The notes under the pieces are model-generated. The model saw nothing but the letters and a program-made list of their open reading frames with translations, had not been told where the DNA came from and did not search any database. A stretch of 64,000 bases of DNA from Pandoraea thiooxydans (GTDB lineage Bacteria > Pseudomonadota > Gammaproteobacteria > Burkholderiales > Burkholderiaceae), in contig NZ_CP014839.1 in the NCBI RefSeq assembly GCF_001931675.1, positions 1,984,001-2,048,000 on the forward strand, read 5' to 3'. Position numbers and translations under genes: made by a program. Within the stretch, counting starts at the first letter, position 1. Each line of letters begins with the position of its first letter. Shown one piece after another: positions 21,761-52,380 of the stretch.

Positions 21761-27613
<5,853 letters not shown>

Positions 27614-28487: not shown

Positions 28488-28946
28488 ATGTCAAATCTCA
28501 CCTCACTTCATCTGGCCTTGACCAGTGCCCTTATGGCAGCCGGGCGGCAATGGCGGCAAATCTCCGAGGCGATCACTACGCCATCGGGCATCTCCGGCGC
28601 CTGCACCGCACCGCTGATTTTCATTGGCCGGCTGGGCGAAGGGGTGCGCCAAAACGTGCTGGCCGAGCAGATCGGCATCGAAGGCCCATCGCTGGTGCGC
28701 CTGCTCGACCAGATGTGCCGCGCCGGCTTGATTCGCCGGGAGGTCGACCCGGCCGACCGGCGAGCCAACATGCTCTGGTACACCGACGCCGGCAGAGCGT
28801 TGGCCGAAAAAATCGAGGCGGACCTCATCCAATTGCGGGCCTCCGTGTTCCGCGACATCAGCAAGGAAGACGTCGAGGCCACCTTGCGTGTGTTGGCCGC
28901 CATTGGAGACGCAGCCCACGCGGTCAGCGCCCCGGCCCGGCCGTGA
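28488..28946 (+). CDS. MarR family regulator of the aromatic-acid efflux operon
   Basis: A 152-residue MarR-type winged-helix repressor. The DNA-binding region is VLAEQIGIEGPSLVRLLDQM (about residues 57-76) followed by the wing GLIRREVDPADRRANMLWYT, the conserved DxRxxxxxLT-like element. It is the first gene ahead of FUSC, DUF1656, HlyD and an outer-membrane factor; the FUSC start codon lies 14 bp after its stop. MarR proteins in this position sense phenolic acids or similar drugs and derepress the pump. Two dyads just upstream are likely its binding sites. The ribosome binding site is poor. Confidence 0.88.
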   Translation: MSNLTSLHLALTSALMAAGRQWRQISEAITTPSGISGACTAPLIFIGRLGEGVRQNVLAEQIGIEGPSLVRLLDQMCRAGLIRREVDPADRRANMLWYTDAGRALAEKIEADLIQLRASVFRDISKEDVEATLRVLAAIGDAAHAVSAPARP

Positions 28947-28959
28947 GCGAGGTGCTGCC

Positions 28960-31002
28960 ATGAACCACTGGCCTTCGGCGCGGGACTGGCTGTTTTCGCT
29001 CAAAGCCTTCGTTGCCGCGATGCTGGCGCTTTATCTCGCGATGGCGGCCGGCTTGCCACGCCCGTATTGGGCGATGTCGGCCGTCTATATCGTCTCGCAT
29101 CCGCTGACCGGCGCTACCCGCTCGAAAGCGCTGTATCGCGTGCTGGGCACCCTGCTGGGCGCTACCGCGGCAATCGCTTTCGTGCCGCTTTTCGACGACG
29201 CGCCAGTGCTGTTGTCGGCTGTCGTGGCGCTCTGGACCGGCTCGCTGCTCTACATTTCCCTGCTGCACCGCACGCCGCGCAGCTACGTGTTCATGCTCGC
29301 CGCCTATACGCTGCCGTTGATCGCCCTGCCCGCTGTCGATCAGCCGCAGGCCGTGTTCGACATCGCCGTGGCGCGCAGCGAGGAAATCATGCTTGGCATC
29401 ATCTGCGCCAGTGTCGTCGGGGCGATTGTCTTTCCGGGCCGCATCGCGCCGGTGATCCATGCTCGCACGCAAGCCTGGCTGCGCGACGCCGCTGCCTGGG
29501 CGGCCGACACGCTGGCGCCCGGCAGTGCCGCCCAGCATCCTGGCACCCGGCACCGGCTGGCGTCCGACATCCTGGCACTCGACCAACTCATCAGCCAGCT
29601 TTCGTACGATCCGGAAACAGCCGACATGGTGCGCCATGCGCGCGAACTGCGCGCCCGCATGTCGATGCTGTTGCCGGTGCTGTCCTCGCTCACGGCGGTG
29701 CTCGGTACGCTGCGCGGCCAGGGGCACGCGATGCCGCACGACCTCGAACAGCTCACTGGCGAGATCGCCGGCTGGGTGCGCACGATGTCGGCCGATGCCG
29801 GCGCGGCCCAGCGCTTTCGCGAGCGGCTCGAGCGCGGCGACGCCCCGGCTGGCGACGCGCTCGACTGGGGCGGCGCGCTCGCCGCCAATGCCCGCTGGCG
29901 GCTGGGCGCGCTGGTCGACCTGTGGCTCGACTGTCTGACCCTACATGCGCGCCTGGCCGGCGAGGCGTCGGGCGAGCCCTGGGCTCCCGCTTATCGGCGC
30001 CGCGAGATTTCGCGCGGGGCGCGTCACCTGGATTACGGCATGACGCTGTTCTCGGCGTTCTCCGCCAGTCTGGCAACCTTCTGCGGCTGCCTGGTCTGGA
30101 TCGCCACCGGCTGGGCCGACGGCGGTGCGGCCGTCACGCTGGGCGCGATCGCCAGCTGCTTTTTTGCCGCGCAGGACGAACCGGCGCCGATGGTGCTGTC
30201 GTTTGCCGTATGGACCGCCGTGTGCATCGTCGTCGCGGCCATCTATCTGTTCGCGATTCTGCCGCTCTCGCACGGTTTTGTAACGCTGGCCATGCTGCTG
30301 GCCGTGCCGTTTCTGCTCGCCGGCACGTTGATCGCGCAACCGCGCTTCAACATGATCGCCATGCTGCTGACCGTCAACACCGCGACCTTCATCGGCCTGC
30401 AGGGCGCCTACCAGGCCGACTTCACGGCGTTCCTCAACGGCAATCTGGCGGGCGTCGCGGGCGTGCTGGTCGCGCTGGGCTGGACCTTGCTGACGCGGCC
30501 GTTCGGCACCGAACTGGCGTTGCGCCGTCTGGTGCATGCGAGCTGGCGCGACCTGGCCGACACCGCCGCCGGCCATGCCGTCACCGATCATGCACGGCTT
30601 ACCGCCCGCATGCTCGATCGGCTCGGTCAATTGATCCCGCGCTTGGCGGCAAGCGGCAACGACACCGTCACCGACGGCTTCAAGGAATTGCGCGTCGGCT
30701 TCAGCACGCTCGAGTTGCAGCGCGAAGAACTCGACCTGTCGGGCACCACCCGCGATGCCATCCAGGCGGTACTCGATGCGCTTGCCGATTACTACCGGCG
30801 CTGTCTGGCCGAGCGCACGCACCGGGCCCCGCAGGCCGACCTGCAGCACCGCATCGACGCGGCCATCGCGCGCACCGTCACGCGTCGCAGCGCGGCGGCG
30901 CGCATCGCACTCAACGCATTGGTCGAATTGCGGGTGGCCTTGCTGCCCACCGCGACGCCCCTGCGCGTGCCGAACGCGCCGGGTGCGGCCGGCGGCGGTT
31001 GA
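28960..31002 (+). CDS. FUSC family inner-membrane efflux protein (AaeB/fusaric acid resistance type)
   Basis: A 680-residue protein with two sets of membrane helices separated by cytosolic segments, the standard FUSC repeat: the first around residues 15-155, the second around 365-515. The conserved YWAMSAVYIVSHPLTG is present at the first helix pair. The family exports aromatic carboxylic acids and fusaric acid together with an HlyD-type adaptor. GAGG about eight bases upstream supports ATG 28960. It is followed by DUF1656 and adaptor genes as in aaeXAB. Confidence 0.9.
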   Translation: MNHWPSARDWLFSLKAFVAAMLALYLAMAAGLPRPYWAMSAVYIVSHPLTGATRSKALYRVLGTLLGATAAIAFVPLFDDAPVLLSAVVALWTGSLLYISLLHRTPRSYVFMLAAYTLPLIALPAVDQPQAVFDIAVARSEEIMLGIICASVVGAIVFPGRIAPVIHARTQAWLRDAAAWAADTLAPGSAAQHPGTRHRLASDILALDQLISQLSYDPETADMVRHARELRARMSMLLPVLSSLTAVLGTLRGQGHAMPHDLEQLTGEIAGWVRTMSADAGAAQRFRERLERGDAPAGDALDWGGALAANARWRLGALVDLWLDCLTLHARLAGEASGEPWAPAYRRREISRGARHLDYGMTLFSAFSASLATFCGCLVWIATGWADGGAAVTLGAIASCFFAAQDEPAPMVLSFAVWTAVCIVVAAIYLFAILPLSHGFVTLAMLLAVPFLLAGTLIAQPRFNMIAMLLTVNTATFIGLQGAYQADFTAFLNGNLAGVAGVLVALGWTLLTRPFGTELALRRLVHASWRDLADTAAGHAVTDHARLTARMLDRLGQLIPRLAASGNDTVTDGFKELRVGFSTLELQREELDLSGTTRDAIQAVLDALADYYRRCLAERTHRAPQADLQHRIDAAIARTVTRRSAAARIALNALVELRVALLPTATPLRVPNAPGAAGGG

Positions 31003-31050
31003 TTTTTAACGTTTTAACGAGACCGGCCGATCGCCGGGACTGACAGAAGA

Positions 31051-31260
31051 ATGAGTGGCGAAATCAACATTTACGGTGTGTTCGTTCCCAGCGTGCTGGG
31101 CTGGATGCTGATCGCCTTCGCGATCACCACCGGCTTGCGCATGCTGCTCGGGCGCGCGGGCCTCTACCGGCACGTATGGCACCGCTCGCTGTTCAATCTG
31201 GCGCTTTATGTGATCGTGCTGGGCGGCACGGTTTTTCTGATTCATTGGTTGCAGTCATGA
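31051..31260 (+). CDS. DUF1656 small membrane protein (AaeX-like)
   Basis: A 69-residue protein with two hydrophobic helices and the AaeX opening MSGEINIYGVFVPSVL. AaeX sits with AaeA and AaeB in enterobacteria, and its function is unknown. The gene ends in an ATGA overlap with the HlyD gene, so it is part of the pump operon. Confidence 0.87.
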   Translation: MSGEINIYGVFVPSVLGWMLIAFAITTGLRMLLGRAGLYRHVWHRSLFNLALYVIVLGGTVFLIHWLQS

Positions 31261-32153
31261 AAAAAGATACTCGCTTCATCGGATCCGTCATCCTCACCCT
31301 GGCGCTGGCGGCAGTCGCGGCAGTGACCGCCGCGCATCTGTTGGATTACTACACAGTCGCGCCCTGGACCCGCGATGGCCAGGTCGGCGCCGACGTGGTG
31401 CAGATCGCTCCCGACGTCAGCGGCCAGATCACCCAGGTGATGGCCCACGACAACCAGACCGTCAAGCAGGGACAGGCGCTGTTCGTGATCGACCGCGCGC
31501 GCTTCGAACTCGCGCTGCAGCACGCCCGGGAAGTCGTCGCCGCGCAACGTGCGGCGCTGGCCGAGGCGCGGCGCGAAGCGGCGCGCAATCGGTCGCTGGG
31601 CAACCTGGTCGCGCAGGAGACCACCGAGCAAAGCCAGGCCCGGGTCCTGCAGGACGAGGCCGCCCTGGCACAGGCCAAAACCGCCGTCGCCGTCGCCGAA
31701 CTGAATCTGCGACGGGCCACCGTGCTGAGCCCGGTCGACGGCTTCCTGAGCGACCGCACACCGCGGGTTGGCGACTATGTCGTGACCGGCAAGCCGGTGC
31801 TGTCGATCGTCGACGCGCATTCGTTCCATGTCGACGGCTACTTCGAAGAAACCAAGCTGCATGACATTCGCGTCGGCCAGCCGGTCAAAATCCGCATCAT
31901 GGGTGAATCACAGACGCTGCGCGGCCACGTGCAGAGTATCGCCGCCGGCATCGAGGACCGCGACCGCAGCAATGGCGCCAGCCTGCTGCCGAACGTCAAC
32001 CCGACCTTCAGCTGGGTACGCCTGGCGCAGCGCATTCCCGTGCGCGTGGCGCTCGATGACGTGCCGCCGGACGTCCGCCTGATTGCCGGGCGCACCGCGA
32101 CCGTGTCGATCGACACCGACGCGTCCGTGCACAGTTCGGGAGCGCGCTCATGA
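31257..32153 (+). CDS. HlyD/AaeA-like membrane-fusion protein
   Basis: A 298-residue periplasmic adaptor anchored by an N-terminal helix (residues 7-28). The biotinyl-lipoyl half motifs are seen in VSGQITQVMAHDNQTVKQGQ and RATVLSPVDGFLSDRTPRVG, with a coiled-coil hairpin between them (about 80-145). It bridges the FUSC protein and the outer-membrane factor downstream. Starts at ATG 31257 overlapping the DUF1656 stop, and ends overlapping the next gene by four bases. Confidence 0.9.
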   Translation: MKKDTRFIGSVILTLALAAVAAVTAAHLLDYYTVAPWTRDGQVGADVVQIAPDVSGQITQVMAHDNQTVKQGQALFVIDRARFELALQHAREVVAAQRAALAEARREAARNRSLGNLVAQETTEQSQARVLQDEAALAQAKTAVAVAELNLRRATVLSPVDGFLSDRTPRVGDYVVTGKPVLSIVDAHSFHVDGYFEETKLHDIRVGQPVKIRIMGESQTLRGHVQSIAAGIEDRDRSNGASLLPNVNPTFSWVRLAQRIPVRVALDDVPPDVRLIAGRTATVSIDTDASVHSSGARS

Positions 32154-33622
32154 GACCCACTCGCCTTGCCGTGGCGCTCGTGCTGCTGCAAAGCCTGCTT
32201 GGCTGCGCGGTAGTCGGCCCCGATTATCATCTGCCGGCCGAGGCGGCCATCAACCGACCCTCGGCGAATGCCGGATTCGCCGGTGCGCACGGCGCCGCCG
32301 TCACGCTCGCCCCGGTGCCGAACGACTGGTGGCGCTTATACGACGACCCTGCGCTCGAGCGCCTGGTGCAACAAGCGCTCGCGGCCAACACCAATGTGCG
32401 CGTGGCCGCCGCGAATCTGCGCCGTACCCTCGCGCTGCGCGACCAGGTCGACGCCGAAGGGGGATTCCATGGTGCCCTCGAAGGCGCGGCAAAGCGGGCG
32501 CAGGAGTCGGGCGAACAATATCTGCTCAGCGAGAAGCTGCCGGTCGTCAACGAGGGCGATGCCGGCTTGAGCGTGTCCTACGACCTCGATCTGTTCGGCA
32601 AGCTCAAGCGCGCCGGGCAGGCCGCCACGGCCGATGCCCAGGCAAGTCAGGCAGCGCTCGACCTGGTACGCGTGAATGTCGCGGCACAGACCGTGCGCGC
32701 CTACGTCGAGAGCTGCGCCGCCACGCAGGCACTGAGCGTAGCCCGCCGGCAACTCGCGCTGCAAACGCGTAGCGTCGACATCGCCAAGCGGCTCGAAGCC
32801 GCGGGCCGGGGTCGCAGCACCGACGTGCTGCGCGCGCAGGCCCAAGCCGATCTGCTGCGCGCCAACCTGCCGAAGTTCGAGGCCGCGCACGACGCCGCAC
32901 TGCTGCAATTGGCGGTGATGGTGGGAAAAACGCCGCGCGAATTCGATACCTCGACACTCACCTGCGCGCACGCGCCAACGTTGCGCCAGCCGATTCCGGT
33001 CGGTGACGGCACCGCGCTGCTCAAGCGCAGGCCGGACGTGCGCGAGGCCGAGCGTCAACTGGCCGCCGCCACGGCGCGCATCGGCGTGGCCACCGCGGCG
33101 CTTTATCCCGATATCGTGATCGGCGCCTCCGGCGGCTTCACCGGGGTGCTGGAAGATCTGGGAAAGGCATCGACCGGACGCTGGAACATCGGTCCGCTGA
33201 TCTCCTGGACACTGCCCGATAATGGTGCGCGAGCGCGTATCCGCGGTGCGCGGGCCGGCACCGAGGCGGCGCTCGCGCATTTCGACGGCGTCGTGCTCGA
33301 CGCGCTCAAGGAAACCGAGACAGCCTTGACCCGCTACACGCACGACCTCGCCAGCCGAAGCGAGTTGCGCGCCGCGCGCGACGCGGCCCGCCAGGCCGCG
33401 CAACAGAACCGGGTTCTATACCAGGCCGGCAAGACCCCCTACCTCGCCAGCCTCGACGCCGATCGCACGCTGGCCAATACCGAAGCGGCGCTGGCCGCGG
33501 CCGACCGGCAGGTTGCGCTCGATCAGGTCAACCTGTTTCTGGCCCTGGGCGGCGGCTGGCAAGGCAGCGAAGCCAACCCTGCCCGGCTCTCCGGCGCCAG
33601 CGCCGCAAAGTCGACGTCCTAA
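32150..33622 (+). CDS. outer-membrane efflux lipoprotein (NodT/OprM family)
   Basis: A 490-residue outer-membrane factor. The signal ends with a lipobox, SLLGCAVVGPDYH, so the mature N-terminus is likely lipidated at about residue 19. The two OEP repeats cover about residues 60-260 and 270-470, with the family-typical LGKASTGRWNIGP and LLKRRPDVREAERQLAAA segments. It supplies the outer-membrane channel for the FUSC/HlyD pump. It begins with an ATGA overlap. Confidence 0.9.
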   Translation: MRPTRLAVALVLLQSLLGCAVVGPDYHLPAEAAINRPSANAGFAGAHGAAVTLAPVPNDWWRLYDDPALERLVQQALAANTNVRVAAANLRRTLALRDQVDAEGGFHGALEGAAKRAQESGEQYLLSEKLPVVNEGDAGLSVSYDLDLFGKLKRAGQAATADAQASQAALDLVRVNVAAQTVRAYVESCAATQALSVARRQLALQTRSVDIAKRLEAAGRGRSTDVLRAQAQADLLRANLPKFEAAHDAALLQLAVMVGKTPREFDTSTLTCAHAPTLRQPIPVGDGTALLKRRPDVREAERQLAAATARIGVATAALYPDIVIGASGGFTGVLEDLGKASTGRWNIGPLISWTLPDNGARARIRGARAGTEAALAHFDGVVLDALKETETALTRYTHDLASRSELRAARDAARQAAQQNRVLYQAGKTPYLASLDADRTLANTEAALAAADRQVALDQVNLFLALGGGWQGSEANPARLSGASAAKSTS

Positions 33623-33660
33623 GTAAACGCTAATCGAAATTTCTCATGATCGTCATTTTT

Positions 33661-33697
33661 TTGACACGCTTTTTTAATTAGGAAAACATAATTAAAA
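33661..33697 (+). promoter_or_regulatory. TTGACA hexamer and 9-bp operator dyad before the TonB receptor
   Basis: TTGACA (33661-33666) is followed by the perfect inverted repeat TTTTAATTA (33672-33680) / TAATTAAAA (33689-33697) with eight bases between. The repeat covers the position of a -10 element (AAACAT at 17-bp spacing is weak). It looks like a repressor site over a promoter; it does not match Fur or PhoB boxes well. Confidence 0.5.
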
Positions 33698-33793
33698 CTT
33701 AGGAAGATATTCACGGTTCTGTCAGAAACCGTTGTTAGCATCGCGCCTCATTCGAAACCTCGCTTTACAGCCCATTTGAATAAGGATGCCGAT

Positions 33794-35962
33794 ATGAAAC
33801 GGGTAGTTTCGCAGTTCCGTAAAAAGCCGCTGGCGCAATTGATCTTTGCGTCGCTGTGCGCCGCCGGCGCCCAGGTTTCCCATGCACAAACCTCGGGCGA
33901 CCTCGGTTCGGTGCAAAGCACCGCGAACTGGTCGGCGGCCGACGGCTCGGGAGCGAACAACCCGCAATCCGCACCGGCCCAGGCGCCAACGCAAGGCTCG
34001 CTCACCACGACCCAGCCCAAGTCGATCATCAGCCGCCACTACATCGAGAACAGCACCGCGCCGACGTCGAACTACACCGACATCCTGCAGATCGCGCCGA
34101 GCGTGTCGAACGTCGACCCCAACGGTCCCGGTTTGATGGAATCGCAAAGCCTGTCGATTCGCGGCTTCCAGGACGGCCAGTACAACGTGACGTTCGATGG
34201 CATCCCGTTCGGCGACTCGAATGACTTCACCCACCACTCGACCTCGTTCTTCTCATCCCAGTCGCTGGGCGACATGTCGGTCGATCGGGGCCCGGGCGAC
34301 GCCTCCCAAATCGGTTTCGCCACGTTTGGCGGCACCATCGGCCTGACCTCCAAGGCGATGTCCGACAAACCGGCCTTTAACGTGGCGGGCTCGTACGGCA
34401 GTTTCAACACTTGGCTGGGCAGCGCCGAATTCAACAGCGGCGACATGAAGCAGTGGGGCGACGCGCGCATACTGTTCGGTTACAACCAGATCGGCAGCGA
34501 CGGCTATCTGACCAACGCTCACCTGAGCCGCAAGAACGCCTACTTCAAGCTCGAGAAGCCGATCGGCGACAACACGCTGGTGACCCTGTTCGCGACTTAT
34601 TCGCGCATTCACCAGAATGTGCCGGTCGGTGCGACCGCCGCGCAAATCCAGCAATTCGGTCCCGACTTCGGCCTGAGCACCGATCCGACCAGCCAAGCCT
34701 ACTACGGCTACAACTTCGATCGGATCAATACCGATTTCGAGTACCTCGGCATCCAAACCAAATTTGGCGAGTGGTCGATCGATAACAAACTGTATACGTA
34801 CGGGTACTATCACAACGGCTTCAACGGCGCGGACCCCAACGGCGAGACGCCGAACGGCACCAACTTCGGTGCCAACAACGTGCCTGGCCAGGAGATGAAC
34901 AACAACTACCGGGCTGTGGGCGACGTCCTGAACGCCGAACGCAAGCTCGGCCCGGGCAAACTGAAAACCGGCTTGTGGATCACTCGCCAGACCAACTTCC
35001 GCAACAATTTCAACGTCGACGATTCGCTGAATTTCGCGTTCCAGTCGCTGAACTTCACGATGAACGATACGCTGCAGACGTTCGAGCCCTATGCCCAATA
35101 CGCGTGGAACCTCGGTCATGGCCTGACACTGACGCCGGGCGTGAAGTTCGTGTCGTTCAATCGCAGTATCGACACGCCGCTGAACCAGAAATCAGGCACT
35201 GCGCTGGATTACAGCCACACCTGGACCAAGTTCCTGCCGTCGCTGACCGTGCACGAACGGATCACGCCCGACTGGAGCGCCTACGCGCAATACGCGCAGG
35301 GTTTCCTGGCGCCCAACCTGAATGTCTTCTATGTGCAGGATCCGTCGATTTCCGGCCAGCCCAATCCTGAACAGACCAATAACTATCAGATCGGCACGAC
35401 CTACAAGACCGGTCGCCTGACACTGGCCGCCGACGTGTATTACATCGACTTCCTCAATGCCGTGACCAAGCGCACGGTCGGCAGCAATACCACCTTCAGC
35501 AACGCCGGCGGTGCGATCTACAAGGGTATCGAGACCGAAGCCACGGTCTACGCCGGCGACGGCTTCAGCCTGTATGGCAACCTTACCTTCAATTCGGCCA
35601 AGCAGAAAGACACGGGCAGCTGGATGCCCAACGCGCCGCGCCAGACCGCCGCGGCCGGCCTGATTTATCAACATGGTCCGCTGTACGGCTCGTTGATCAC
35701 CAAGTTCGTCGGCCGCCAGTTCGGCGACACGGGCGACACGCAACCGATCGGCGCGTTCGCGGTAACCAACCTGGCAGCCGTCTACACCATCAAGCACCTC
35801 GCGCCGTGGACGCACGACACGCGCATCGGCTTGCAGGTCGACAACCTGTTCAATCGCACCAGCATCGACGCGCTGGCCGGCTACACCGCGGCCGACAACA
35901 CGCCGCTGTACTGGACCGTCCCGGGCCGCTCGATCATCGCCACGCTGGCCACCTCTTTCTAA
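33794..35962 (+). CDS. TonB-dependent outer-membrane receptor
   Basis: A 722-residue receptor. The signal ends near VSHA, then a TonB box-like and plug region (ISRHYIENSTAPTSNYTDIL, SLSIRGFQDGQYNVTFDGIPFGDSNDF) leads into a 22-strand-type barrel that ends in an aromatic Phe (ATLATSF). AAGGA seven bases before ATG 33794 is better than the TTG at 33776. The ligand is unknown. The plug pattern resembles non-siderophore or carbohydrate receptors of Proteobacteria more than FpvA/FecA. It heads a cluster with its own ExbB, ExbD, TonB and a phosphodiesterase, which suggests a phosphorylated ligand. Confidence 0.88.
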   Translation: MKRVVSQFRKKPLAQLIFASLCAAGAQVSHAQTSGDLGSVQSTANWSAADGSGANNPQSAPAQAPTQGSLTTTQPKSIISRHYIENSTAPTSNYTDILQIAPSVSNVDPNGPGLMESQSLSIRGFQDGQYNVTFDGIPFGDSNDFTHHSTSFFSSQSLGDMSVDRGPGDASQIGFATFGGTIGLTSKAMSDKPAFNVAGSYGSFNTWLGSAEFNSGDMKQWGDARILFGYNQIGSDGYLTNAHLSRKNAYFKLEKPIGDNTLVTLFATYSRIHQNVPVGATAAQIQQFGPDFGLSTDPTSQAYYGYNFDRINTDFEYLGIQTKFGEWSIDNKLYTYGYYHNGFNGADPNGETPNGTNFGANNVPGQEMNNNYRAVGDVLNAERKLGPGKLKTGLWITRQTNFRNNFNVDDSLNFAFQSLNFTMNDTLQTFEPYAQYAWNLGHGLTLTPGVKFVSFNRSIDTPLNQKSGTALDYSHTWTKFLPSLTVHERITPDWSAYAQYAQGFLAPNLNVFYVQDPSISGQPNPEQTNNYQIGTTYKTGRLTLAADVYYIDFLNAVTKRTVGSNTTFSNAGGAIYKGIETEATVYAGDGFSLYGNLTFNSAKQKDTGSWMPNAPRQTAAAGLIYQHGPLYGSLITKFVGRQFGDTGDTQPIGAFAVTNLAAVYTIKHLAPWTHDTRIGLQVDNLFNRTSIDALAGYTAADNTPLYWTVPGRSIIATLATSF

Positions 35963-35977
35963 CCGGAGATTGACGTC

Positions 35978-36667
35978 ATGACCGTCGATACTTTCATGCA
36001 CCTCGCGAACAACTCGGACGGGGTGCTCTATGTGATCGCCGCGATGCTGCTGGTCGCCCTGACCGTCATCATCGAACGGTTCTGGTTCCTGCATCGCGCC
36101 GCGGCCAGCACTCACGCCGCGCTTGCCGAGATCGACCGCAGCGAGTCGCTCAACCCGGCAACGCTCAATGCTTGCGCCGAACAATTCCACGGCATGCCCG
36201 CCGCCAGCCTGTTTGCCAGCGCCGCGCGGCTGGCCGGGCATACCTCGGACGACGCGCTCGAGTCCTGCATGGAGGAAGTCATCATGCGCCAGGCGCCGCG
36301 CATCGACCGCTTTCTCTGGGTGCTTGACACGATCGTCACGCTAGCTCCCCTGCTCGGCCTGTTCGGCACCATCCTCGGCATGTTCAATGCGTTTCAGGTC
36401 TTGTCCAACCCGGGCAATGCGCCGACGCAGGTCACCGGCGGCGTCGCCCAGGCGCTCATCGCCACGGCCTCCGGGCTGTTCGTCGCGATGATCGGCCTGG
36501 TGTTCTTCAACGGCCTGCACAATCGCGTGCGCGTCGTCGTGCACCAGCTCGAAACGCTCAAGGCGGCGCTGGTCAATCGCATCGCCCGGGCCCCGCACGA
36601 ACATCCCAGGGCCCTGAAGGACGCGCCTCGCGCGGTGGTCGGCAAACTCGTATCGCAAGGGGCCTGA
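35978..36667 (+). CDS. exbB: ExbB/TolQ/MotA-type proton channel protein
   Basis: A 229-residue inner-membrane protein with three helices; the conserved block is LAPLLGLFGTILGMFNAFQVL, then GVAQALIATASGLFVAMIGLVF (each spanning the channel helices). With ExbD it uses the proton gradient to energise TonB. It starts 15 bp after the receptor and is followed by exbD after four bases. Confidence 0.9.
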   Translation: MTVDTFMHLANNSDGVLYVIAAMLLVALTVIIERFWFLHRAAASTHAALAEIDRSESLNPATLNACAEQFHGMPAASLFASAARLAGHTSDDALESCMEEVIMRQAPRIDRFLWVLDTIVTLAPLLGLFGTILGMFNAFQVLSNPGNAPTQVTGGVAQALIATASGLFVAMIGLVFFNGLHNRVRVVVHQLETLKAALVNRIARAPHEHPRALKDAPRAVVGKLVSQGA

Positions 36668-36671
36668 ACGT

Positions 36672-37079
36672 ATGAAGTACTTGGAAGTACGCCGAGCCCG
36701 CATCGAAATCATTCCGATGATCGACATCATGTTTTTCCTGTTGGTGTTCTTCATCATGATCACGCTGCACATGATTCCGAACGCGGGCTTGCGAACCCAG
36801 TTGCCTTCGAGCAGCAGCACCCAGGCATTGCCGCCGGCCAAAGTGCTGGTGACGCTGTCGACCGACGGCAGCGTGTCGGTCGACGGCAACACGCTGAGCC
36901 CCGCGCAGCTCACCGCAATGCTGGCCGCGCGACCCGATGTCGCGCATACCGCGGTCACCATCGCCGGCTCGAAACAGGCCCGCATTCAGGGGCTGGTTAC
37001 CGTAATGGACGCGTGTCGGGCGGCCGGCGTGTCGCAGATCGCGCTGGCCGCCCAGCCCGCGCAAACCCCGCTCCAGTAA
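36672..37079 (+). CDS. exbD: ExbD/TolR-type protein
   Basis: A 135-residue protein with one N-terminal helix. The conserved IEIIPMIDIMFFLLVFFIM carries the essential membrane Asp (MIDIMF). The periplasmic tail has the ExbD/TolR fold. The TonB gene begins two bases after the stop codon. Confidence 0.9.
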   Translation: MKYLEVRRARIEIIPMIDIMFFLLVFFIMITLHMIPNAGLRTQLPSSSSTQALPPAKVLVTLSTDGSVSVDGNTLSPAQLTAMLAARPDVAHTAVTIAGSKQARIQGLVTVMDACRAAGVSQIALAAQPAQTPLQ

Positions 37080-37081
37080 AG

Positions 37082-37783
37082 ATGGCTACCTTACCCATGC
37101 CGGGCCTTGCCCACGACGGCAAGCGCCTGTTTCGTGCGGCTGCGCTGGCGGCCGTCGTCGAGGCGCTGCTGCTCGGCGGCGGCTACCTGTTCCTGTCCCG
37201 CAAGCCGGTCGCGCCGCCCCCGGTCCCTATCACGCTGCTGGCTATCGCCCAGGCGCCCAAACCCGTTCCGGCACCGCCCAAGCCGGTCGCTCCGGTGAGC
37301 CCGCCTCCGGTCAAGCCGCCCCCTCCGGTACGTCGCGTGATTCACCACGTCGTGCCTACCGCCAGGCCCAAACCGCAGCCGATACCCAAGGCGCCGGCAC
37401 CGCCACCGCCCGCCCCGGCGCCCGCCACACAGGCCGCGCCCCCGCCCGTGCCGCAACCCCCGCCGCCGGCCGCACCGGTAGCCGCGGCCGCACCCGGTGC
37501 GAATTTCGCCAGCGCGCTGCGTGCGGCAATTCAGGCCGCGCTGCGCTATCCCGTGGCAGCCCGCATGGGCGGCATGACGGGTCGCACCCGCGTGGCCTTC
37601 GATTACCGCGACGGCGTCGTCTCTCACGTGCGCGTGGTTATCTCCAGCGGCGTCGGCCTGCTAGACCGCGCCGCGCTCGCGGCGGTACGTGAAGCGGCCG
37701 TCCCCAAACCCAAACCCGCCTTTGCCGGCAAGACGTTCGCCGAGCAGTTGTGGGTAACCTTCAATCTGAACAACGACGAATGA
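37082..37783 (+). CDS. tonB: TonB energy transducer
   Basis: A 233-residue TonB: one N-terminal helix (residues 18-38), a long Pro-rich spacer with Pro-Lys and Pro-Val repeats (about 40-140), and a C-terminal domain with LRYPVAARMGGMTGRTRVAFDYRDG. The C-terminal block AEQLWVTFNL closes the fold. Its dedicated receptor and ExbBD upstream indicate a private system. It overlaps the phosphodiesterase by four bases. Confidence 0.88.
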   Translation: MATLPMPGLAHDGKRLFRAAALAAVVEALLLGGGYLFLSRKPVAPPPVPITLLAIAQAPKPVPAPPKPVAPVSPPPVKPPPPVRRVIHHVVPTARPKPQPIPKAPAPPPPAPAPATQAAPPPVPQPPPPAAPVAAAAPGANFASALRAAIQAALRYPVAARMGGMTGRTRVAFDYRDGVVSHVRVVISSGVGLLDRAALAAVREAAVPKPKPAFAGKTFAEQLWVTFNLNNDE

Positions 37784-39288
37784 AAAAGAGATTTTCCGCC
37801 GCTATCGCCGGCCTGGGCATGTGCGTCGCCGCATTGGCGGGCGCAGCGAGCCTGCCGGCCAACGCACCTGCTCGGCATGTACTGCTCATCAGCGTCGACG
37901 GCCTGCACGGCAGCGATCTGGCGTACTTCATCGAAGCTCACCCGCACAGCACATTGGCCGCGCTCGCGCGCCACGGCATCGACTACGGCAACGCGCGCAC
38001 GGTCGGGCCGGCCGATTCGTTTCCGGGTCTGTTGGCGCTGATCACGGGCGGCACGCCGGCAGCCACCGGCGTGTACTACGACGTGACCTACGATCGGTCC
38101 CTCTCGCCGGCCGGCAGCGATTGCCGTGGGCGCGGCGCAGCCGTGCCGTACAACGAAGCGATCGACGCCACCGCTGCCGGCAAGCGGGACACGATCGACC
38201 CGGCCAAGCTGCCGCGCGACCCGCGCGACGGCTGCCGGCCGGTCTATCCACACGCCTATTTGCGCGTCAACACGGTTTTCGAAGCAGTGCGCGCGGCCGG
38301 CGGCTACACCGCCTGGACCGACAAGCACCCGGCTTATGAATTGGTGCAAGGCCCCTCCGGGCATGGTGTCGACGACCTCTTTCTGCCGGAGATCGGCGCC
38401 AACTACGAGGCGCGGCAAGCCGCGCCGGTCAATGGCATCACCGCGTCGCTCGCGCGTACCGAAGCTTATGACGACATGAAGGCACACGCGCTCGTCAATG
38501 AGATCGACGGCCTCACCCACGACGGACGTCGCCGTGCGCCGGTACCCAATCTGTTCGGGCTGAACCTGCAGGCCATCAACGTCGCGCAAAAACTCTACGG
38601 CTATCGCGACGCCGACGGCGCGCCAACGCCCGGACTCACGCAGGCGCTCGAGCACACCGATCGGATTCTCGGCCGCTTCGTCGAGGCCCTGCGCCGGCAA
38701 GGGCTGCGCGACGATACGCTGATCGTGGTCACTGCCAAGCACGGCAATGGACCGATCGATCCCGCCCGGTTGCACAAAGTCGATCGCAACGAACTGGCCA
38801 GGGTCATCGACGCTGCCGCGCCGGGTGCATTGGCGCAGCTGACCGTCGACAGCGGCGCCTTGATCTGGCTGCGCGCCCCGTCGGCTACCGCGCAAGTCGC
38901 CGCAGCCCTGCGCGCTCATGCGGCGCCCCTGGGCATTGCCGACGTGCTCAGCGGCGAGCGGCTGGCAAGACGCTTTCCGTCCCCGCAACAAGATAGCCGC
39001 ACCCCGGACATCATCGTCATGACCAAAGCCGGCGTGATCTACACCAAGCCCGCGGACGGCAAGCGCATGGAGCATGGCGGCTTCGGCAACGACGACAGAC
39101 ACGTCGCGCTGCTGCTGTCGAGCCCGCGTCTGGCCCATGCCGGGCGGCTCGTGACATATCCGGTGTCGACCACCCAGGTTGCGCCAACCATGCTGGCCGC
39201 ACTCGGCTTGCACCCCACCGCGCTCAAGGCCGTCGTGCTGGAAAACACGCCGACGTTGCCACAGGTCGACTGGCTAAAGCCGCGCTGA
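37780..39288 (+). CDS. exported alkaline-phosphatase-superfamily phosphodiesterase/nucleotide pyrophosphatase
   Basis: A 502-residue periplasmic enzyme. After a signal peptide (MKKRFSAAIAG...LPANA) come the metal and nucleophile motifs of the type I phosphodiesterase family: LLISVDGLHG, GPADSFPGLLALITGG with a candidate nucleophile Ser in place of the common Thr, TDKHPAY, TLIVVTAKHGNGPID and MEHGGFGNDDRHVA. The usual SDHG motif reads AKHG, as in a known subgroup. The start is coupled to tonB (ATGA). Substrate is unknown; as the last gene of a TonB operon it probably hydrolyses the imported or surface-bound phosphoester. Confidence 0.82.
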   Translation: MKKRFSAAIAGLGMCVAALAGAASLPANAPARHVLLISVDGLHGSDLAYFIEAHPHSTLAALARHGIDYGNARTVGPADSFPGLLALITGGTPAATGVYYDVTYDRSLSPAGSDCRGRGAAVPYNEAIDATAAGKRDTIDPAKLPRDPRDGCRPVYPHAYLRVNTVFEAVRAAGGYTAWTDKHPAYELVQGPSGHGVDDLFLPEIGANYEARQAAPVNGITASLARTEAYDDMKAHALVNEIDGLTHDGRRRAPVPNLFGLNLQAINVAQKLYGYRDADGAPTPGLTQALEHTDRILGRFVEALRRQGLRDDTLIVVTAKHGNGPIDPARLHKVDRNELARVIDAAAPGALAQLTVDSGALIWLRAPSATAQVAAALRAHAAPLGIADVLSGERLARRFPSPQQDSRTPDIIVMTKAGVIYTKPADGKRMEHGGFGNDDRHVALLLSSPRLAHAGRLVTYPVSTTQVAPTMLAALGLHPTALKAVVLENTPTLPQVDWLKPR

Positions 39289-39580: not shown

Positions 39581-39683
39581 TTGCTCGGCGCGACGACCCC
39601 GCGTCACGAGATCCGCTCCATACCGGCGCTCAGCCGGTGCAGTGCCATTTGACAATGGTTTGATGGGTCCAACGGGGATAAAC

Positions 39684-40814
39684 ATGCGGGTATGGCACTC
39701 GGTATCGAAACATCCACCAGACGTGCCCGGTCACCTGGGATCCGCGTGGCGTCTGCATCACTGCGTCACGCCGTATCGGCGCCGGAGTGGATTGCATTGG
39801 CGGCAGGTCCTGCTGCTGCTTTTGCTGGTGCTGATCGCATCGTACGTGCGTGCGGCAACGCTGGCCACCGTCACGGTCAAGGCGCAGCCGCTGCGTGACG
39901 AATGGATCGCCGACGCGGTGATCGAATCGACGCGGCAAACAGTGGTATCCGCGCAAACCTCCGGCCGCATCACCGCGCTGTATGTGAAGGCCGGCGATCA
40001 GGTCGCCGCCGGCCAGCGCCTGCTGTCGATCGACCAGCGCACGGCCGACGAGCAACTGGCGGCATCGCGCGCGCAATTCGCGGCGGCCAGCGCCGAGCGC
40101 GACGTCGCCGCGCGCGATCTGGCGCGCACCCGCACGCTGTTCGACAAGCAATATGTCAGCCAGGCGGCGCTCGATCGCGCCCAGGCGCGCTACCGGGCGG
40201 CGGCCGAGGCGGCCTCGGCCAGACAGGCCGAGGTGCGCGCGGCGCTCGTGCAGGCCGGGTTGCATAACATTGCTGCGCCCTACGCCGGCACCGTCGCCAG
40301 CGTCGACGTCGAGCTCGGCGCCACCGCGATGCCAGGCGCCCCGCTGCTCACGCTCTACAGCCCCCACACCCTGCGAGCGGTCGCCACGGTGCCGCAGTCC
40401 CAACTGACAGGAGTGCAAAGCGATGCGGCGGTACGCGTCGAGATACCCGACTTGCCGGCCGGCGCGCGCTGGCAGACCGCCACGTCGGTCGAGATCCTGC
40501 CGGTGGCCGACCCGCTCAGCCATTCGGTGCAGGTACGCCTGCCATTGCCCGCGGCGGCCAACCAGGCACGCCCGGGCATGTTCGCCCGCGCCTACTTCCC
40601 GGTCGGTCAAGCTCGCCTGGGGCTGATGGTGCCGCTTACCGCGGTCGTTCGGCGTACCGAGGTCACCGCCGTCTACGTGGTCGCGCCGGGCGGACAGGTC
40701 ACGCTGCGCCAGGTGCGGCTGGGCGAAGTCCACGGCGATCAGGTGGAAATCCTGGCCGGGATAGCGGCCGGCGAGCAGGTTGCTCTCGACCCGACGGCGG
40801 CAGCACGTCAATGA
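39684..40814 (+). CDS. RND efflux periplasmic adaptor (HlyD_D23/AcrA-like)
   Basis: A 376-residue membrane-fusion protein. An unusually long basic N-terminus (about 40 residues) precedes the hydrophobic signal-anchor LLLLLLVLIASYVRA. The lipoyl halves are VVSAQTSGRITALYVKAGDQVAAG and NIAAPYAGTVASVDVELG, with the coiled-coil hairpin between. ATG 39684 is chosen for the GGGG stretch about seven bases upstream. It starts a five-gene operon with the permease, DUF2892, TolC and SQR. Confidence 0.85.
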   Translation: MRVWHSVSKHPPDVPGHLGSAWRLHHCVTPYRRRSGLHWRQVLLLLLLVLIASYVRAATLATVTVKAQPLRDEWIADAVIESTRQTVVSAQTSGRITALYVKAGDQVAAGQRLLSIDQRTADEQLAASRAQFAAASAERDVAARDLARTRTLFDKQYVSQAALDRAQARYRAAAEAASARQAEVRAALVQAGLHNIAAPYAGTVASVDVELGATAMPGAPLLTLYSPHTLRAVATVPQSQLTGVQSDAAVRVEIPDLPAGARWQTATSVEILPVADPLSHSVQVRLPLPAAANQARPGMFARAYFPVGQARLGLMVPLTAVVRRTEVTAVYVVAPGGQVTLRQVRLGEVHGDQVEILAGIAAGEQVALDPTAAARQ

Positions 40815-40836
40815 CCCCTAGCGAACCGACCTTGCG

Positions 40837-43800
40837 ATGAGCTCACCCAACCTCGGCATCTCCGGCCGCATCGCGGCGTTCTTTCTGGAGAACCGCATCA
40901 CCCCGCTGCTCGCGCTGGTGGCGCTGTTGCTGGGCCTGTTCGCGATGGTGATGACCCCGCGCGAGGAAGAGCCGCAAATCAATGTCACGATGGCCAACGT
41001 GCTGGTGCCGTTTCCCGGTGCGAGCGCGCGCGACGTCGAACAGATGGTGGCCGGGCCGGCCGAGCAGATTCTCTCGCAAATCAAGGACGTCAAGCATGTC
41101 ACCTCGGTGTCGCAGCCCGGCCTGGCGGTGCTGACAGTGCAGTTCGAGGTCGGCGTGCCCCGCACCGATGCCCTGGTCAGACTGTACGACACCGTCTACT
41201 CGAATCAGGATTGGCTGCCGAAGAATCTCGGGGTGCTGCCACCGCTCATCAAGCCAAAGGGGATCGACGATGTGCCGATCGTCGTACTCACGCTCTATTC
41301 GACCGATCCCCACACTGGCGCCTACGATCTCGAGCGGGTCGGACAATCGATCGAGGCGGATCTCAAGCGCGTGCCCGGCACGCGCGAAGTCACCACCATC
41401 GGCGGGCCGCAGCGCGCCGTCAACGTCCTGCTCGACCCGGCCCGCATGCAGGCCGCCGGCGTCACGGTCGACGATTTGCGCAATGCGCTGCGCGGCGCCA
41501 ACGCCGGTGCTTCGGTCGGCGATCTGGTGCGCGACAACCGCAGTATTCACATCGAAACCGGGGCGCTGCTCAAAAGCGCGCAGGACGTACGGACCCTGAT
41601 GGTGGCGGTGCGCGACGGCCGGCCGGTATTCGTCTCGGACGTGGCCACCGTGCGCGACGGTCCTCCCACGCCGACCCATTACGTCTGGGAGGGCGTAGCG
41701 GGCAAGCATCCGGCCGAATACCCGGCGGTTTCGATCTCGGTCACCAAAAAGGCCGGCGAGAACGCCGTGAGCGTGGCCAGGGAGGTGCTGCAGCGCGTTG
41801 CCCAGTTGCGCAACACGGTGATTCCGGCCGACGTGAAAATCGACGTCGCGCGCGACTACGGCACCACCGCCAATGCCAAGGCGCTCAAGCTCATCGAGAA
41901 GTTGATCTTCGCCACGACCTCGGTGGTCGTGCTGGTGCTGCTGGCGCTGGGCTGGCGCGAGGCGCTGGTGGTCGGCACCGCGGTCATCCTGACCCTGACC
42001 GCTACCCTGTTCGCTTCCTGGGCCTGGGGTTTCACTCTCAATCGCGTTTCGCTTTTCGCATTGATCCTGTCGATCGGCATCCTGGTCGACGATGCGATCG
42101 TGGTGGTGGAGAACATCCATCGGCATCGCGCGCTCGAGTCCGGCAAGACGCTCGTGGCGATCATCCCGAAAGCCGTCGACGAGGTCGGCGGGCCCACCAT
42201 TCTCGCCACCCTCACGGTGATCGCCGCCCTCCTGCCGATGGCCTTCGTCAGCGGGCTGATGGGCCCCTACATGAGCCCGATTCCGATCAACGCCAGCATG
42301 GGCATGGCGATTTCCCTGACGGTGGCGTTCGTCGTCACACCATGGCTCTCGCGCGTCTGGCTCAGGCACTCGCACCACATCGCCAAACCCGGCTTGCGTG
42401 CCAAGCTCGAACCGCTTTTCGAGCGCGTGCTCGCGCCGTTTCTCGACGACACCCGAGGCGCGCGCAATCGCGGCTTGCTGTGGTTCGGCGTGGCTGGCGC
42501 GATCGTTGTGTCGATGCTGCTGCCGGCCTTCAAGCTGGTGATACTGAAGATGCTGCCGTTCGACAACAAGTCCGAATTCCAGGTGGTGGTCGATATGCCG
42601 GCCGGCACGCCGCTCGAGCGCACTGCGGCGGCTCTGCATCAGATGGGCGCCTATCTGGCCACGGTGCCCGAGATGACGACCTATCAGGCCTATGCCGGAC
42701 TCAGCGCGCCGATCAATTTCAACGGCCTGGTCAGGCAATACTACCTGCGCGCCGGCGGCAACGTGGGTGACATCCAGGCCAATCTGGTCGATCAATCGAT
42801 GCGCCATCGGCAAAGCCACGCCATCGCCACCGCGGTGCGTCCAGCCCTGACCGCGATCGCCAGGCAGTATGGCGCGCGCATCAAGGTCGTCGAGGTGCCG
42901 CCCGGACCGCCCGTGCTCGCGCCGATCGTCGCGGAAGTCTACGGGCCGACCGAGCAGGGCCGCATGGCCGTGGCAAAAAGCGTGCGTCACGTGTTCGACA
43001 CGACGCCGGGCGTGGTGGACGTCGACGACAGCACCATCGCGCTGGCACCGCAGCGCACCTTCGAACTCGACCGGCGCAAGGCCGGCCTGCTGGGGATCTC
43101 GCAACAGGAGGTCGCGCAAACGCTGCGCGCCGGCCTTAGCGGCGAAGACGTCACCTATCTGCACGACGGCAGCAAATACCCGAGCGCGGTTCGCCTAGCC
43201 TTGCCGGCCCGGCTCACCGGCGATGACGCGGCGCTGCTCGCCCTGAGCGCGCGCGGCGCGCAAGGCCAGCTCGTGCCGCTGTCCGAACTGCTGCATGTGC
43301 GCGACGACACCGTCGAGCAACCCATCTATCACAAGGATCTGTTGCCGGTGGTCTACGTGGTCGGCGACATGGCGGGCAAGGTCGACAGCCCGCTGTACGG
43401 CATGTTCGAGATGCGCAGCCGACTGGCGAACCTGAGCGTGCCGGGTGGCGGCAAGCTCGGCGAATGGTTTATCCGGCAGCCGTCCGACCCATACCGCGCC
43501 TATTCGATCAAGTGGGACGGCGAGTGGCAAATCACCTACGAAACATTCCGCGACATGGGCGTGGCCTATGCCGTCGGCCTGCTGCTGATCTATTTGCTGG
43601 TAGTGGCCGAATTCGGCTCTTACCTGACACCGCTCATCATCATGGCGCCGATCCCGCTGACCATCATCGGTGTCATGCCGGGGCACGCCCTGCTCGGCGC
43701 CCAGTTCACGGCGACCTCGATGATCGGCATGATCGCCCTGGCCGGCATCATCGTGCGCAACTCCATCCTGCTGGTCGATTTCATCAACCTGCAGGTCGCC

Positions 43801-44055
43801 GAGGGCGTGGCCTTCAAGCAGGCCATCGTGCGCTCGGCCGCCACACGCGCGCAACCGATTCTGCTCACCGCACTGGCGGCCATGATCGGCTCGCTGTTCA
43901 TTCTCGACGACCCGATCTTCAATGGCCTGGCAATCTCGCTGATCTTCGGCATTCTGGTCTCGACGGTGCTCACCCTGGTCGTTATCCCGCTGCTCTACTA
44001 CAGCGCCTATCGACGCCGCCATTTATCTGACACATCCACCAAGGAGCCATCATGA
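40837..44055 (+). CDS. RND efflux pump permease (AcrB-type)
   Basis: A 1072-residue inner-membrane RND transporter with twelve helices in two halves and two large periplasmic loops. The opening FFLENRITPLLALVALLLG and REEEPQINV, and the helix-4 motif SIGILVDDAIVVVENIHRH with the proton-relay Asp pair, are seen. The loops show the porter-domain pattern. The REEEPQI motif is typical of a branch separate from AcrB/MexB. It exchanges protons for substrate; the substrate is unknown. It overlaps the DUF2892 gene by four bases. Confidence 0.92.
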   Translation: MSSPNLGISGRIAAFFLENRITPLLALVALLLGLFAMVMTPREEEPQINVTMANVLVPFPGASARDVEQMVAGPAEQILSQIKDVKHVTSVSQPGLAVLTVQFEVGVPRTDALVRLYDTVYSNQDWLPKNLGVLPPLIKPKGIDDVPIVVLTLYSTDPHTGAYDLERVGQSIEADLKRVPGTREVTTIGGPQRAVNVLLDPARMQAAGVTVDDLRNALRGANAGASVGDLVRDNRSIHIETGALLKSAQDVRTLMVAVRDGRPVFVSDVATVRDGPPTPTHYVWEGVAGKHPAEYPAVSISVTKKAGENAVSVAREVLQRVAQLRNTVIPADVKIDVARDYGTTANAKALKLIEKLIFATTSVVVLVLLALGWREALVVGTAVILTLTATLFASWAWGFTLNRVSLFALILSIGILVDDAIVVVENIHRHRALESGKTLVAIIPKAVDEVGGPTILATLTVIAALLPMAFVSGLMGPYMSPIPINASMGMAISLTVAFVVTPWLSRVWLRHSHHIAKPGLRAKLEPLFERVLAPFLDDTRGARNRGLLWFGVAGAIVVSMLLPAFKLVILKMLPFDNKSEFQVVVDMPAGTPLERTAAALHQMGAYLATVPEMTTYQAYAGLSAPINFNGLVRQYYLRAGGNVGDIQANLVDQSMRHRQSHAIATAVRPALTAIARQYGARIKVVEVPPGPPVLAPIVAEVYGPTEQGRMAVAKSVRHVFDTTPGVVDVDDSTIALAPQRTFELDRRKAGLLGISQQEVAQTLRAGLSGEDVTYLHDGSKYPSAVRLALPARLTGDDAALLALSARGAQGQLVPLSELLHVRDDTVEQPIYHKDLLPVVYVVGDMAGKVDSPLYGMFEMRSRLANLSVPGGGKLGEWFIRQPSDPYRAYSIKWDGEWQITYETFRDMGVAYAVGLLLIYLLVVAEFGSYLTPLIIMAPIPLTIIGVMPGHALLGAQFTATSMIGMIALAGIIVRNSILLVDFINLQVAEGVAFKQAIVRSAATRAQPILLTALAAMIGSLFILDDPIFNGLAISLIFGILVSTVLTLVVIPLLYYSAYRRRHLSDTSTKEPS

Positions 44056-44261
44056 CCTCATGGCAAATCACACGCGTTTTCGCCGGCACGTTGATCCTGA
44101 TCAGCCTGCTCATCGGCGCTCCCGCCAGCCCGTTTTACGTCAGCGCGTACTGGCTGTGGCTGACCGCATTCGTGGGCGCGAATCTGCTGCAAAGCGGCTT
44201 CACCAGATGGTGCCCGATGGAAATTTTCATGCGCAAGCTCGGCATGCGGGGCGGCGACTGA
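44052..44261 (+). CDS. DUF2892 (YgaP-like) small membrane protein
   Basis: A 69-residue protein with two membrane helices and the family Cys in GFTRWCPMEIFMRKLG. DUF2892 forms the membrane half of the rhodanese YgaP, and stand-alone copies are common in sulfide- and persulfide-handling operons. Its presence inside an RND operon that ends in SQR strengthens the sulfur theme. It is coupled to the permease by an ATGA overlap. Confidence 0.87.
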   Translation: MTSWQITRVFAGTLILISLLIGAPASPFYVSAYWLWLTAFVGANLLQSGFTRWCPMEIFMRKLGMRGGD

Positions 44262-44286
44262 GTCGCACTCTTCGGGAACGACCATC

Positions 44287-52056: not shown

Positions 52057-52062
52057 CTCATC

Positions 52063-52380
52063 ATGGAAACCTTGACCTTCGATTACCCCGCCGGCACACG
52101 CGCCCGCGGCCGCGCGCTCGCCGGCGTGGTGGCCTCGGGCGATCTCGAAGTGCTGCTCGAGCCGGCCGACGACGCGCGCACCATCGTTCGCGTGACGACC
52201 TCCGTCGACGGCATGGCCGGCGTCTGGGGCGCCGTGCTCGAGCGCATTTTCGGCGCCGGCACGTTGCCGGCCGCGCAGCTCGAAATCAATGATTTCGGCG
52301 CCACCCCCGGTGTGGTGCGCATGCGCGTGGGCCAGGTCCTCGACATGATTGCCGCTCACGATTCCGGAGCCCGCCGATGA
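52063..52380 (+). CDS. mdcC: malonate decarboxylase acyl carrier protein (delta)
   Basis: A 105-residue carrier protein. The prosthetic-group attachment Ser is Ser25 in VVASGDLEVLLEP, the known MdcC site. It cycles between acetyl and malonyl thioesters on the 2'-(5''-phosphoribosyl)-dephospho-CoA arm made by MdcB and attached by MdcG. It overlaps mdcD by four bases. Confidence 0.92.
   Translation: METLTFDYPAGTRARGRALAGVVASGDLEVLLEPADDARTIVRVTTSVDGMAGVWGAVLERIFGAGTLPAAQLEINDFGATPGVVRMRVGQVLDMIAAHDSGARR

Follow-up and report, generated by a model that had tools for sequence, protein, structure and literature searches.

Why would a bacterium keep a TonB-dependent receptor, the TonB motor proteins, and an exported phosphoesterase in one operon? 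This question is raised by an island of five genes in the soil bacterium Pandoraea thiooxydans (assembly GCF_001931675.1, contig NZ_CP014839.1), which we analyzed in a stretch of 64,000 nucleotides, called the window here; all coordinates are window positions. The answer that we favor with moderate confidence is that the island scavenges organic phosphate and brings its own energy-coupling machinery: TonB would drive the import of phosphate esters that are then dephosphorylated in the periplasm. The evidence that carries it is that, in related genomes, one receptor family is linked to phosphoesterases from three different Pfam families.

Gene content and layout of the island

Reading of the open reading frames (ORFs) gave five genes on the same strand, which span positions 33794 to 39288:

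33794-35962, plus strand: TonB-dependent outer-membrane receptor, 722 aa (PF07715 and PF00593)
35978-36667, plus strand: ExbB-type proton channel subunit (PF01618, MotA_ExbB)
36672-37079, plus strand: ExbD-type subunit (PF02472)
37082-37783, plus strand: TonB with a proline-rich linker (PF03544 and TIGR01352, over cut-off)
37780-39288, plus strand: predicted exported phosphoester hydrolase of the alkaline phosphatase (AP) superfamily, 502 aa (PF01663; likely nucleophile Ser80)

The first four genes are separated by 15, 4, and 2 nt, and tonB and the enzyme gene overlap in the sequence ATGA. All five proteins scored over the Pfam cut-offs (Plug and TonB_dep_Rec_b-barrel, MotA_ExbB, ExbD, TonB_C, and Phosphodiest, respectively), and the N termini of the receptor and the enzyme, judged by eye, look like Sec signal peptides. 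ORF positions, spacing, overlap, and Pfam matches bear out the tight five-gene operon proposed in the initial annotation. Its premise that most receptors share one genomic TonB fits this genome poorly, as the single 4.46-Mb contig encodes five receptors and four proteins with a TonB_C domain, besides six ExbB/MotA-type proteins. The weakest of the four TonB_C proteins is perhaps TolA.

In the mechanism that we propose, the ligand of the receptor would be a phosphate ester of low abundance or of a size that porins exclude, and the island's own ExbB-ExbD-TonB complex would drive this ester into the periplasm. There the exported enzyme would split it, and the phosphate, alone or together with the organic part, would enter the cell via ordinary inner-membrane transporters. 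The transport of an ester and the inward direction of flow are what we infer from the comparisons given below.

The receptor scored 44.9 bits with PF07715 and 132.8 bits with PF00593, both over cut-off, and its plug stretch around the motif GxxNxTxDGxPxGDxNDF.H is highly conserved among 27 aligned receptors. In its structure model (predicted local distance difference test, pLDDT, of 81) the nearest solved fold was PqqU/YncD, followed by FecA; such a fold would be compatible with a small anionic ligand and is no proof of one. The ExbB-type protein scored under the NCBIfam exbB and tolQ equivalog cut-offs, and the ExbD-type protein likewise under its equivalog cut-offs.

TonB-dependent receptors mostly carry metal chelates, and the nearest solved folds include FecA, FyuA, and OprC, all of which favors the main rival explanation. 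According to it, the island takes up a metal chelate (a siderophore, a metallophore, or a metal-phytate-like ligand) and the enzyme strips phosphate from the ligand or processes it to free the metal. An assignment as siderophore receptor was rejected by model score, since TIGR01783 gave 112.5 bits at a cut-off of 223.5. A Fur site in the window was rejected as well, the best candidate (12/19) being equalled by about 20% of shuffles. Both results speak against the rival and, as a weak test, against the iron-regulated siderophore uptake that the initial annotation had named as a finding that would overturn it.

Linkage of receptor and phosphoesterase genes

The enzyme was found at E values of ≤1e-20 in 16 of 101 genomes (P. 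thiooxydans and 100 relatives). A scan of named genomes yielded at least 571 confirmed enzyme relatives among at least 595 stretches. The best 80 by score were kept, so that the linked share cannot be extrapolated to the family as a whole, and neighboring genes were found with profiles built for the five island proteins. A same-strand receptor gene adjoins the enzyme gene in 33 of these 80 loci, 20 of which also contain exbB, exbD, and tonB. The order receptor-exbB-exbD-tonB-enzyme is present in 16 loci, including L057, the nearest kin of the window; receptor and enzyme without motor genes occur in 13, and the order enzyme-receptor-exbB-exbD-tonB in 4. Three further loci have tonB/exbD beside the enzyme on a contig that ends before the receptor, and one has a divergent receptor. 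The five-gene order is thus conserved in several genera, and the view that phosphodiesterases rarely join TonB operons, also part of the initial annotation, is wrong for this enzyme family. No receptor was found in 16 loci with a short flank and in 27 loci with both flanks of at least 2.5 kb; among the latter, L104 does contain a receptor gene at a distance of 6 kb.

In a maximum-likelihood tree of 85 enzyme rows, the clade of the window's enzyme comprises 37 rows (support 100/100), 34 of them receptor-linked and 3 cut by contig ends. Linked rows L061, L067, and L079 were counted by tonB or exbD at the contig end. Not a single row of this clade combines readable flanks with the lack of a receptor, a clade-wide linkage that rules out a chance neighborhood. 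On the whole tree the linkage label changes 7 times, a number equalled by none of 500 shuffles. The enzyme-first islands, found in Silvimonas and other Pandoraea, sit elsewhere in the tree among unlinked rows, which indicates that receptor and enzyme became linked, or linked anew, on at least two occasions. One genus therefore holds two versions of the island: an enzyme-first version with a PAP2 phosphatase and a two-component pair (L046-L048, L050, L056, L202) and a receptor-first version without them (the window). Two side observations concern single rows. Downstream of its first enzyme-receptor pair, the contig of L073 carries another, divergent one (L073:14908-18963), and the enzyme of L132, a record titled Burkholderiaceae, groups inside Acidobacteria rows, reflecting either transfer or mis-binning.

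The neighborhoods were also read from the receptor side. Searches found the receptor in 13 of 200 genomes of the family (at 1e-60) and in 4 of 369 genomes of the class outside the family (at 1e-70). In these 17 loci, the enzyme was present in 12 (in G024 across a contig break), another phosphoesterase in 3, and neither was found in 2. In genomes G103 and G106 a PAP2 acid phosphatase takes the enzyme's place; elsewhere G103 encodes only a 38 to 46% relative, and the whole assembly of G106 yielded no enzyme at 1e-10. In G528 a 982-aa PF04185 phosphoesterase, which has weak beta-propeller-type matches, is encoded between tonB and exbD (L217:10700-13648, minus strand). The PAP2 proteins beside relatives matched PF01569 over cut-off in all three cases scanned; with the acid phosphatase PhoC model NF045654 they gave 64.3 and 95.5 bits, below its cut-off of 430. 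The enzyme-first islands hold both a PAP2-family acid phosphatase and the enzyme, in adjacent genes. PF01663 and PF04185 are presumably members of the same Pfam clan (alkaline-phosphatase-like), which means that the exchanged families represent at least two unrelated folds rather than three. That a single receptor family has phosphoesterase neighbors from three Pfam families, with at least two folds among them, is the strongest argument for a phosphoester cargo.

Receptors without the phosphodiesterase, which the initial annotation had considered refuting, do occur, in 5 of the 17 loci, yet 3 of these 5 have another phosphoesterase. Its proposal that phosphoester import is coupled to cleavage draws support from the conserved five-gene order, from the separate re-linkage with changed order, and from the exchange with PAP2 and PF04185 proteins. 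This support does not extend to any of the ligands that it named; a phosphate ester as such would be the ligand. As a side observation, receptor relatives L214 and L215 adjoin proteins with an OmpR-type C-terminal DNA-binding domain and ATP-binding cassette (ABC) transporters, with no phosphoesterase found.

According to a second rival explanation, the enzyme has its substrates in the bacterium's own envelope or in phosphorylated polymers outside the cell and would merely be co-regulated with a general uptake system, with no coupled import. AP-superfamily enzymes include envelope-modifying members, and the 27 receptor-less loci with readable flanks, Gram-positive genera among them, are in line with such a role. 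The overlap of tonB and the enzyme gene, the linkage seen in two distinct regions of the tree, and the swaps with other phosphoesterases argue against it, and we regard it as very unlikely.

The active site of the enzyme

The enzyme scored 111.6 bits with PF01663 (gathering score 23), and this family was matched (E 0.001) by all 55 members of the enzyme alignment; alignments excluded L079 and L138 because of stop codons in the stretch used. A phmmer search of the enzyme against the PDB gave no match, and matches came only by profile. The predicted fold is that of the nucleotide pyrophosphatases/phosphodiesterases (NPP), and known NPP/AP-superfamily enzymes are about 15 to 20% identical.

We take the canonical NPP ligand positions to be Asp, Asp, His at one site and Asp, Asp-His, His, plus a Thr/Ser nucleophile. 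The nucleophile (S80) and three of the six metal ligands (D40, H321, H432) are kept in the island enzyme: Ser80, His321, and His432 are invariant in 55 of 55 rows and Asp40 in all 54 filled rows. Of the other three ligands, one Asp is replaced by Lys320 in 54 of 55 rows, a second Asp by Asn262 in 53 of 55, an assignment based on the alignment and predicted secondary structure only, and a further His is absent. The enzyme thus shares with Xac NPP, ENPP5, ENPP6, and SPAP/PhoK the predicted fold, the position of the nucleophile, and one Asp and two His of the metal sites. It differs from NPP/AP enzymes, which have a metal-binding Asp at the positions of its Lys and Asn, and in the motif TAWxDKH, which is its family's own and largely conserved among its relatives. 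With half of the two-metal ligands replaced, the name "type I phosphodiesterase" denotes the family and not a demonstrated activity. An assignment as true diesterase, as in the initial annotation, is also not supported in view of the PAP2-type phosphatases that can substitute for the enzyme. Identity with Psip1 was rejected, as the part of the Psip1 description available to us presents a beta-propeller akin to PhoX.

The replacements at positions 320 and 262 and the absent His would also suit a pseudoenzyme, for example a periplasmic ligand-binding protein on an NPP scaffold. The unvaried Ser80, Asp40, His321, and His432 and the substitution of phosphatases for the enzyme in two kin islands make this third rival highly improbable. 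A more far-reaching proposal, which we put forward tentatively and consider doubtful, is that the enzyme founds a distinct, widespread hydrolase subfamily with Lys for a metal-binding Asp, which would work with one metal or none and with Ser80 and Lys/His groups. Around it, proteobacteria would at least twice have built a portable, self-energized phosphate-ester import island with an interchangeable hydrolase and a constant receptor.

Regulation, genome setting, and related systems

Three features were defined upstream of the receptor gene:

33650-33667, plus strand: Pho-box-like site TCGTCATTTTTTTGACAC, which contains TTGACA (14.5 bits with the pstS matrix; outside the conserved block)
33673-33758, plus strand: promoter block conserved in G024, with a dyad and a 21-bp-spaced direct repeat TTAGGAAAACAT/TTAGGAAGATAT
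33708-33741, plus strand: Pho-box-like site TATTCACGGTTCTGTCAG, followed after 10 nt by TAGCAT as -10 (composite matrix)

The initial annotation had placed the operon behind a TTGACA and a 9-bp dyad. Both are present, at 33661-33666 and as TTTTAATTA/TAATTAAAA at 33672-33680/33689-33697. As a promoter element, TTGACA did not hold up: a sigma-70 scan reported no promoter there, and G024 reads GGACAT/TGGACA instead. G024, whose operon is split across two contigs, is the sole close relative with readable upstream DNA. It differs from the window at 2 of 86 bases in 33673-33758 and at 13 of the preceding 40, so that the conserved block sits downstream of the proposed -35. Eight of the nine dyad base pairs are kept in G024. 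The direct repeat lies inside the block at 33678-33710, and with its spacing of two helix turns it is a possible response-regulator site. The block partly aligns with those of nine Burkholderiaceae islands (common AACTTnGnAAGAT, TCAC, and a TA..AT hexamer). As these islands have a promoter block of their own, PhoB is one candidate regulator and not the only one.

The Pho box consensus comprises two half-sites 11 bp apart, with the -10 about 10 bp on. We built matrices from the pstS promoters of relatives, 42 of which were read and 41 used (without L159) or, for the longer composite matrix, 40 (also without L175). TA...T occurs at the equal 10-nt spacing in 38 of the 40 promoters, 26 of them near-copies. 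Compared to 464 control upstream regions, the site at 33650, which is altered in G024, gave a p value of 0.011, and TATTCACGGTTCTGTCAG with TAGCAT, identical in G024 in box and -10, gave 0.026 with the composite matrix. These sites are suggestive of phosphate control, and P. thiooxydans may induce the island at low phosphate.

Upstream regions of stand-alone enzyme relatives had higher Pho-box scores than control genes of the same loci (32 versus 203 regions, p 2.6e-5); this and the following p values are somewhat too small because the rows are related. The 32 rows derive from 48 loci after removal of 13 near-copies or contig-cut loci, which left 35, and of 3 with short DNA. The signal also exceeded that of the reversed motif (p 2.9e-4) and of the opposite strand (p 8e-4), and a larger set including near-copies and cut loci gave a p value of 3.8e-6 (42 versus 464). 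Receptor-first operons scored above controls as a set (28 versus 464, p 0.0023; composite matrix, p 0.0007); not included in this set were L045 (on one contig with L070), L055 and L057 (truncated where the receptor gene starts), L068, L084 (cut), and the loci with the enzyme first.

A response regulator and histidine kinase pair adjoins 10 of 16 five-gene, 6 of 13 receptor-enzyme, 4 of 4 enzyme-first, and 2 of 3 cut loci. In the window no such pair is found near the island, and the kinase has no orthologue in the window's genome or in those of its two nearest kin, where matches show only 30 to 37% identity. Receptor-first operons without the pair had higher Pho-box scores than those with it (9 versus 17, p 0.026, in groups picked post hoc; L069 and L078 were left out).

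Several of our results weigh against organic-phosphate scavenging. The nearest solved receptors bind PQQ or ferric ligands, 27 of the best 80 enzyme loci have both flanks readable and no receptor within reach, and half of the enzyme's metal ligands are missing. In G511 and G404 no phosphoesterase was found within about 6 to 8 kb of the receptor (Pfam on larger ORFs and our own profiles), and ABC-transporter genes are present instead. The exchange in G106 is a weaker case than that in G103, as its tonB ends at the contig edge. In the window the plain Pho consensus count was matched by 35% of shuffles, and the matrix signal is weak, with p values of 0.011 to 0.026 only. Just 6 of the 28 receptor-first operons exceeded the controls' 95th percentile, with a p value of 0.04 against the reversed motif, and the enzyme-first Pandoraea islands (scores of -0.7 to -2.2) have no Pho-box-like site before them. 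Six of the 27 unlinked enzyme loci also have the two-component pair, at a distance of at most 6 kb, and scans of two regulators and one kinase against NCBIfam gave heavy-metal types as the closest models, in each case below cut-off.

The closeness of the pair to CopRS/CzcRS-type models favors metal-chelate uptake, as does a binding-protein ABC system at one partner-less receptor locus. The recurrent partner of the receptor, however, is a phosphoesterase from any of three Pfam families, and stand-alone enzyme relatives have Pho-box-like upstream sites. On balance we consider metal-chelate uptake unlikely.

The island is flanked on both sides by efflux gene sets on the plus strand, at 28888-33622 (FUSC-type, membrane-fusion, and NodT-like proteins, named by eye) and 39642-45657 (a membrane-fusion protein and a resistance-nodulation-division pump, both named by eye, and an outer-membrane efflux protein, assigned by Pfam to the gene at 44287). 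Further away, a 1,949-aa ORF on the minus strand (21761-27613) with UvrA interaction and DNA-binding domains and several ABC-type ATPase stretches resembles a fused or duplicated UvrA-type protein, and 49475-54046 contains malonate decarboxylase genes (alpha subunit, PF16957; MdcE, PF06833).

Organic-phosphate scavenging by such means has counterparts, described here from the available parts of each source. The Pus clusters of Flavobacterium (PusCD, PUSI-IV) encode Pi-induced SusCD-type transporters and periplasmic phosphodiesterases and phosphomonoesterases (PMC8115612). They share with the island the clustering of a TonB-dependent transporter gene with genes for exported enzymes and the logic of import followed by periplasmic cleavage. 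Unlike the island, with its proteobacterial receptor, own exbB-exbD-tonB, and PF01663 enzyme, they belong to Bacteroidetes and have a SusC/SusD pair and enzymes of pf00149, pf16670, and pf00245 (PMC8115612). None of the five ORFs that fill 33794-39288 matches the Pfam SusD model. In Citromicrobium a receptor gene lies beside a phytase gene, and there too the neighborhood was used to propose a phosphoester (phytate) ligand; this is a single case with a phytase, and no dedicated TonB complex is described in the available text (PMC3400609). In Sphingobium fuliginis an organophosphate hydrolase with a proposed role in phosphate acquisition co-purifies with Ton-complex components. This enzyme is a membrane-associated phosphotriesterase, and the text available describes no receptor-exbBD-tonB-enzyme operon (PMC7142613). 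A more distant parallel is a Caulobacter receptor gene beside that of a phosphate-starvation lipoprotein (PMC2996285). Caulobacter UrpRS, a metal-responsive two-component pair controlling phytase, parallels by description only the pair beside the islands of relatives, which the window lacks (PMC8963506). The available parts of PMC9414882 and PMC9403785 contain nothing on this gene set, and no publication describing the island was among the open-licence literature matches listed. The island is probably similar in function to the Pus, Citromicrobium, and Sphingobium systems and is not a Pus cluster by make-up, as it has no SusD, another enzyme family, and its own motor.

Organic phosphate is a large pool of soil phosphorus, and to our knowledge little has been reported on how bulky phosphoesters pass the outer membrane of Gram-negative bacteria outside Bacteroidetes. 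A compact island whose receptor, motor, and enzyme genes are probably transcribed together can easily be deleted or moved, which makes its ligand and its energy source testable in one strain. The unusual active site poses a second, independent question, namely how an alkaline-phosphatase fold may work without the full two-metal site.

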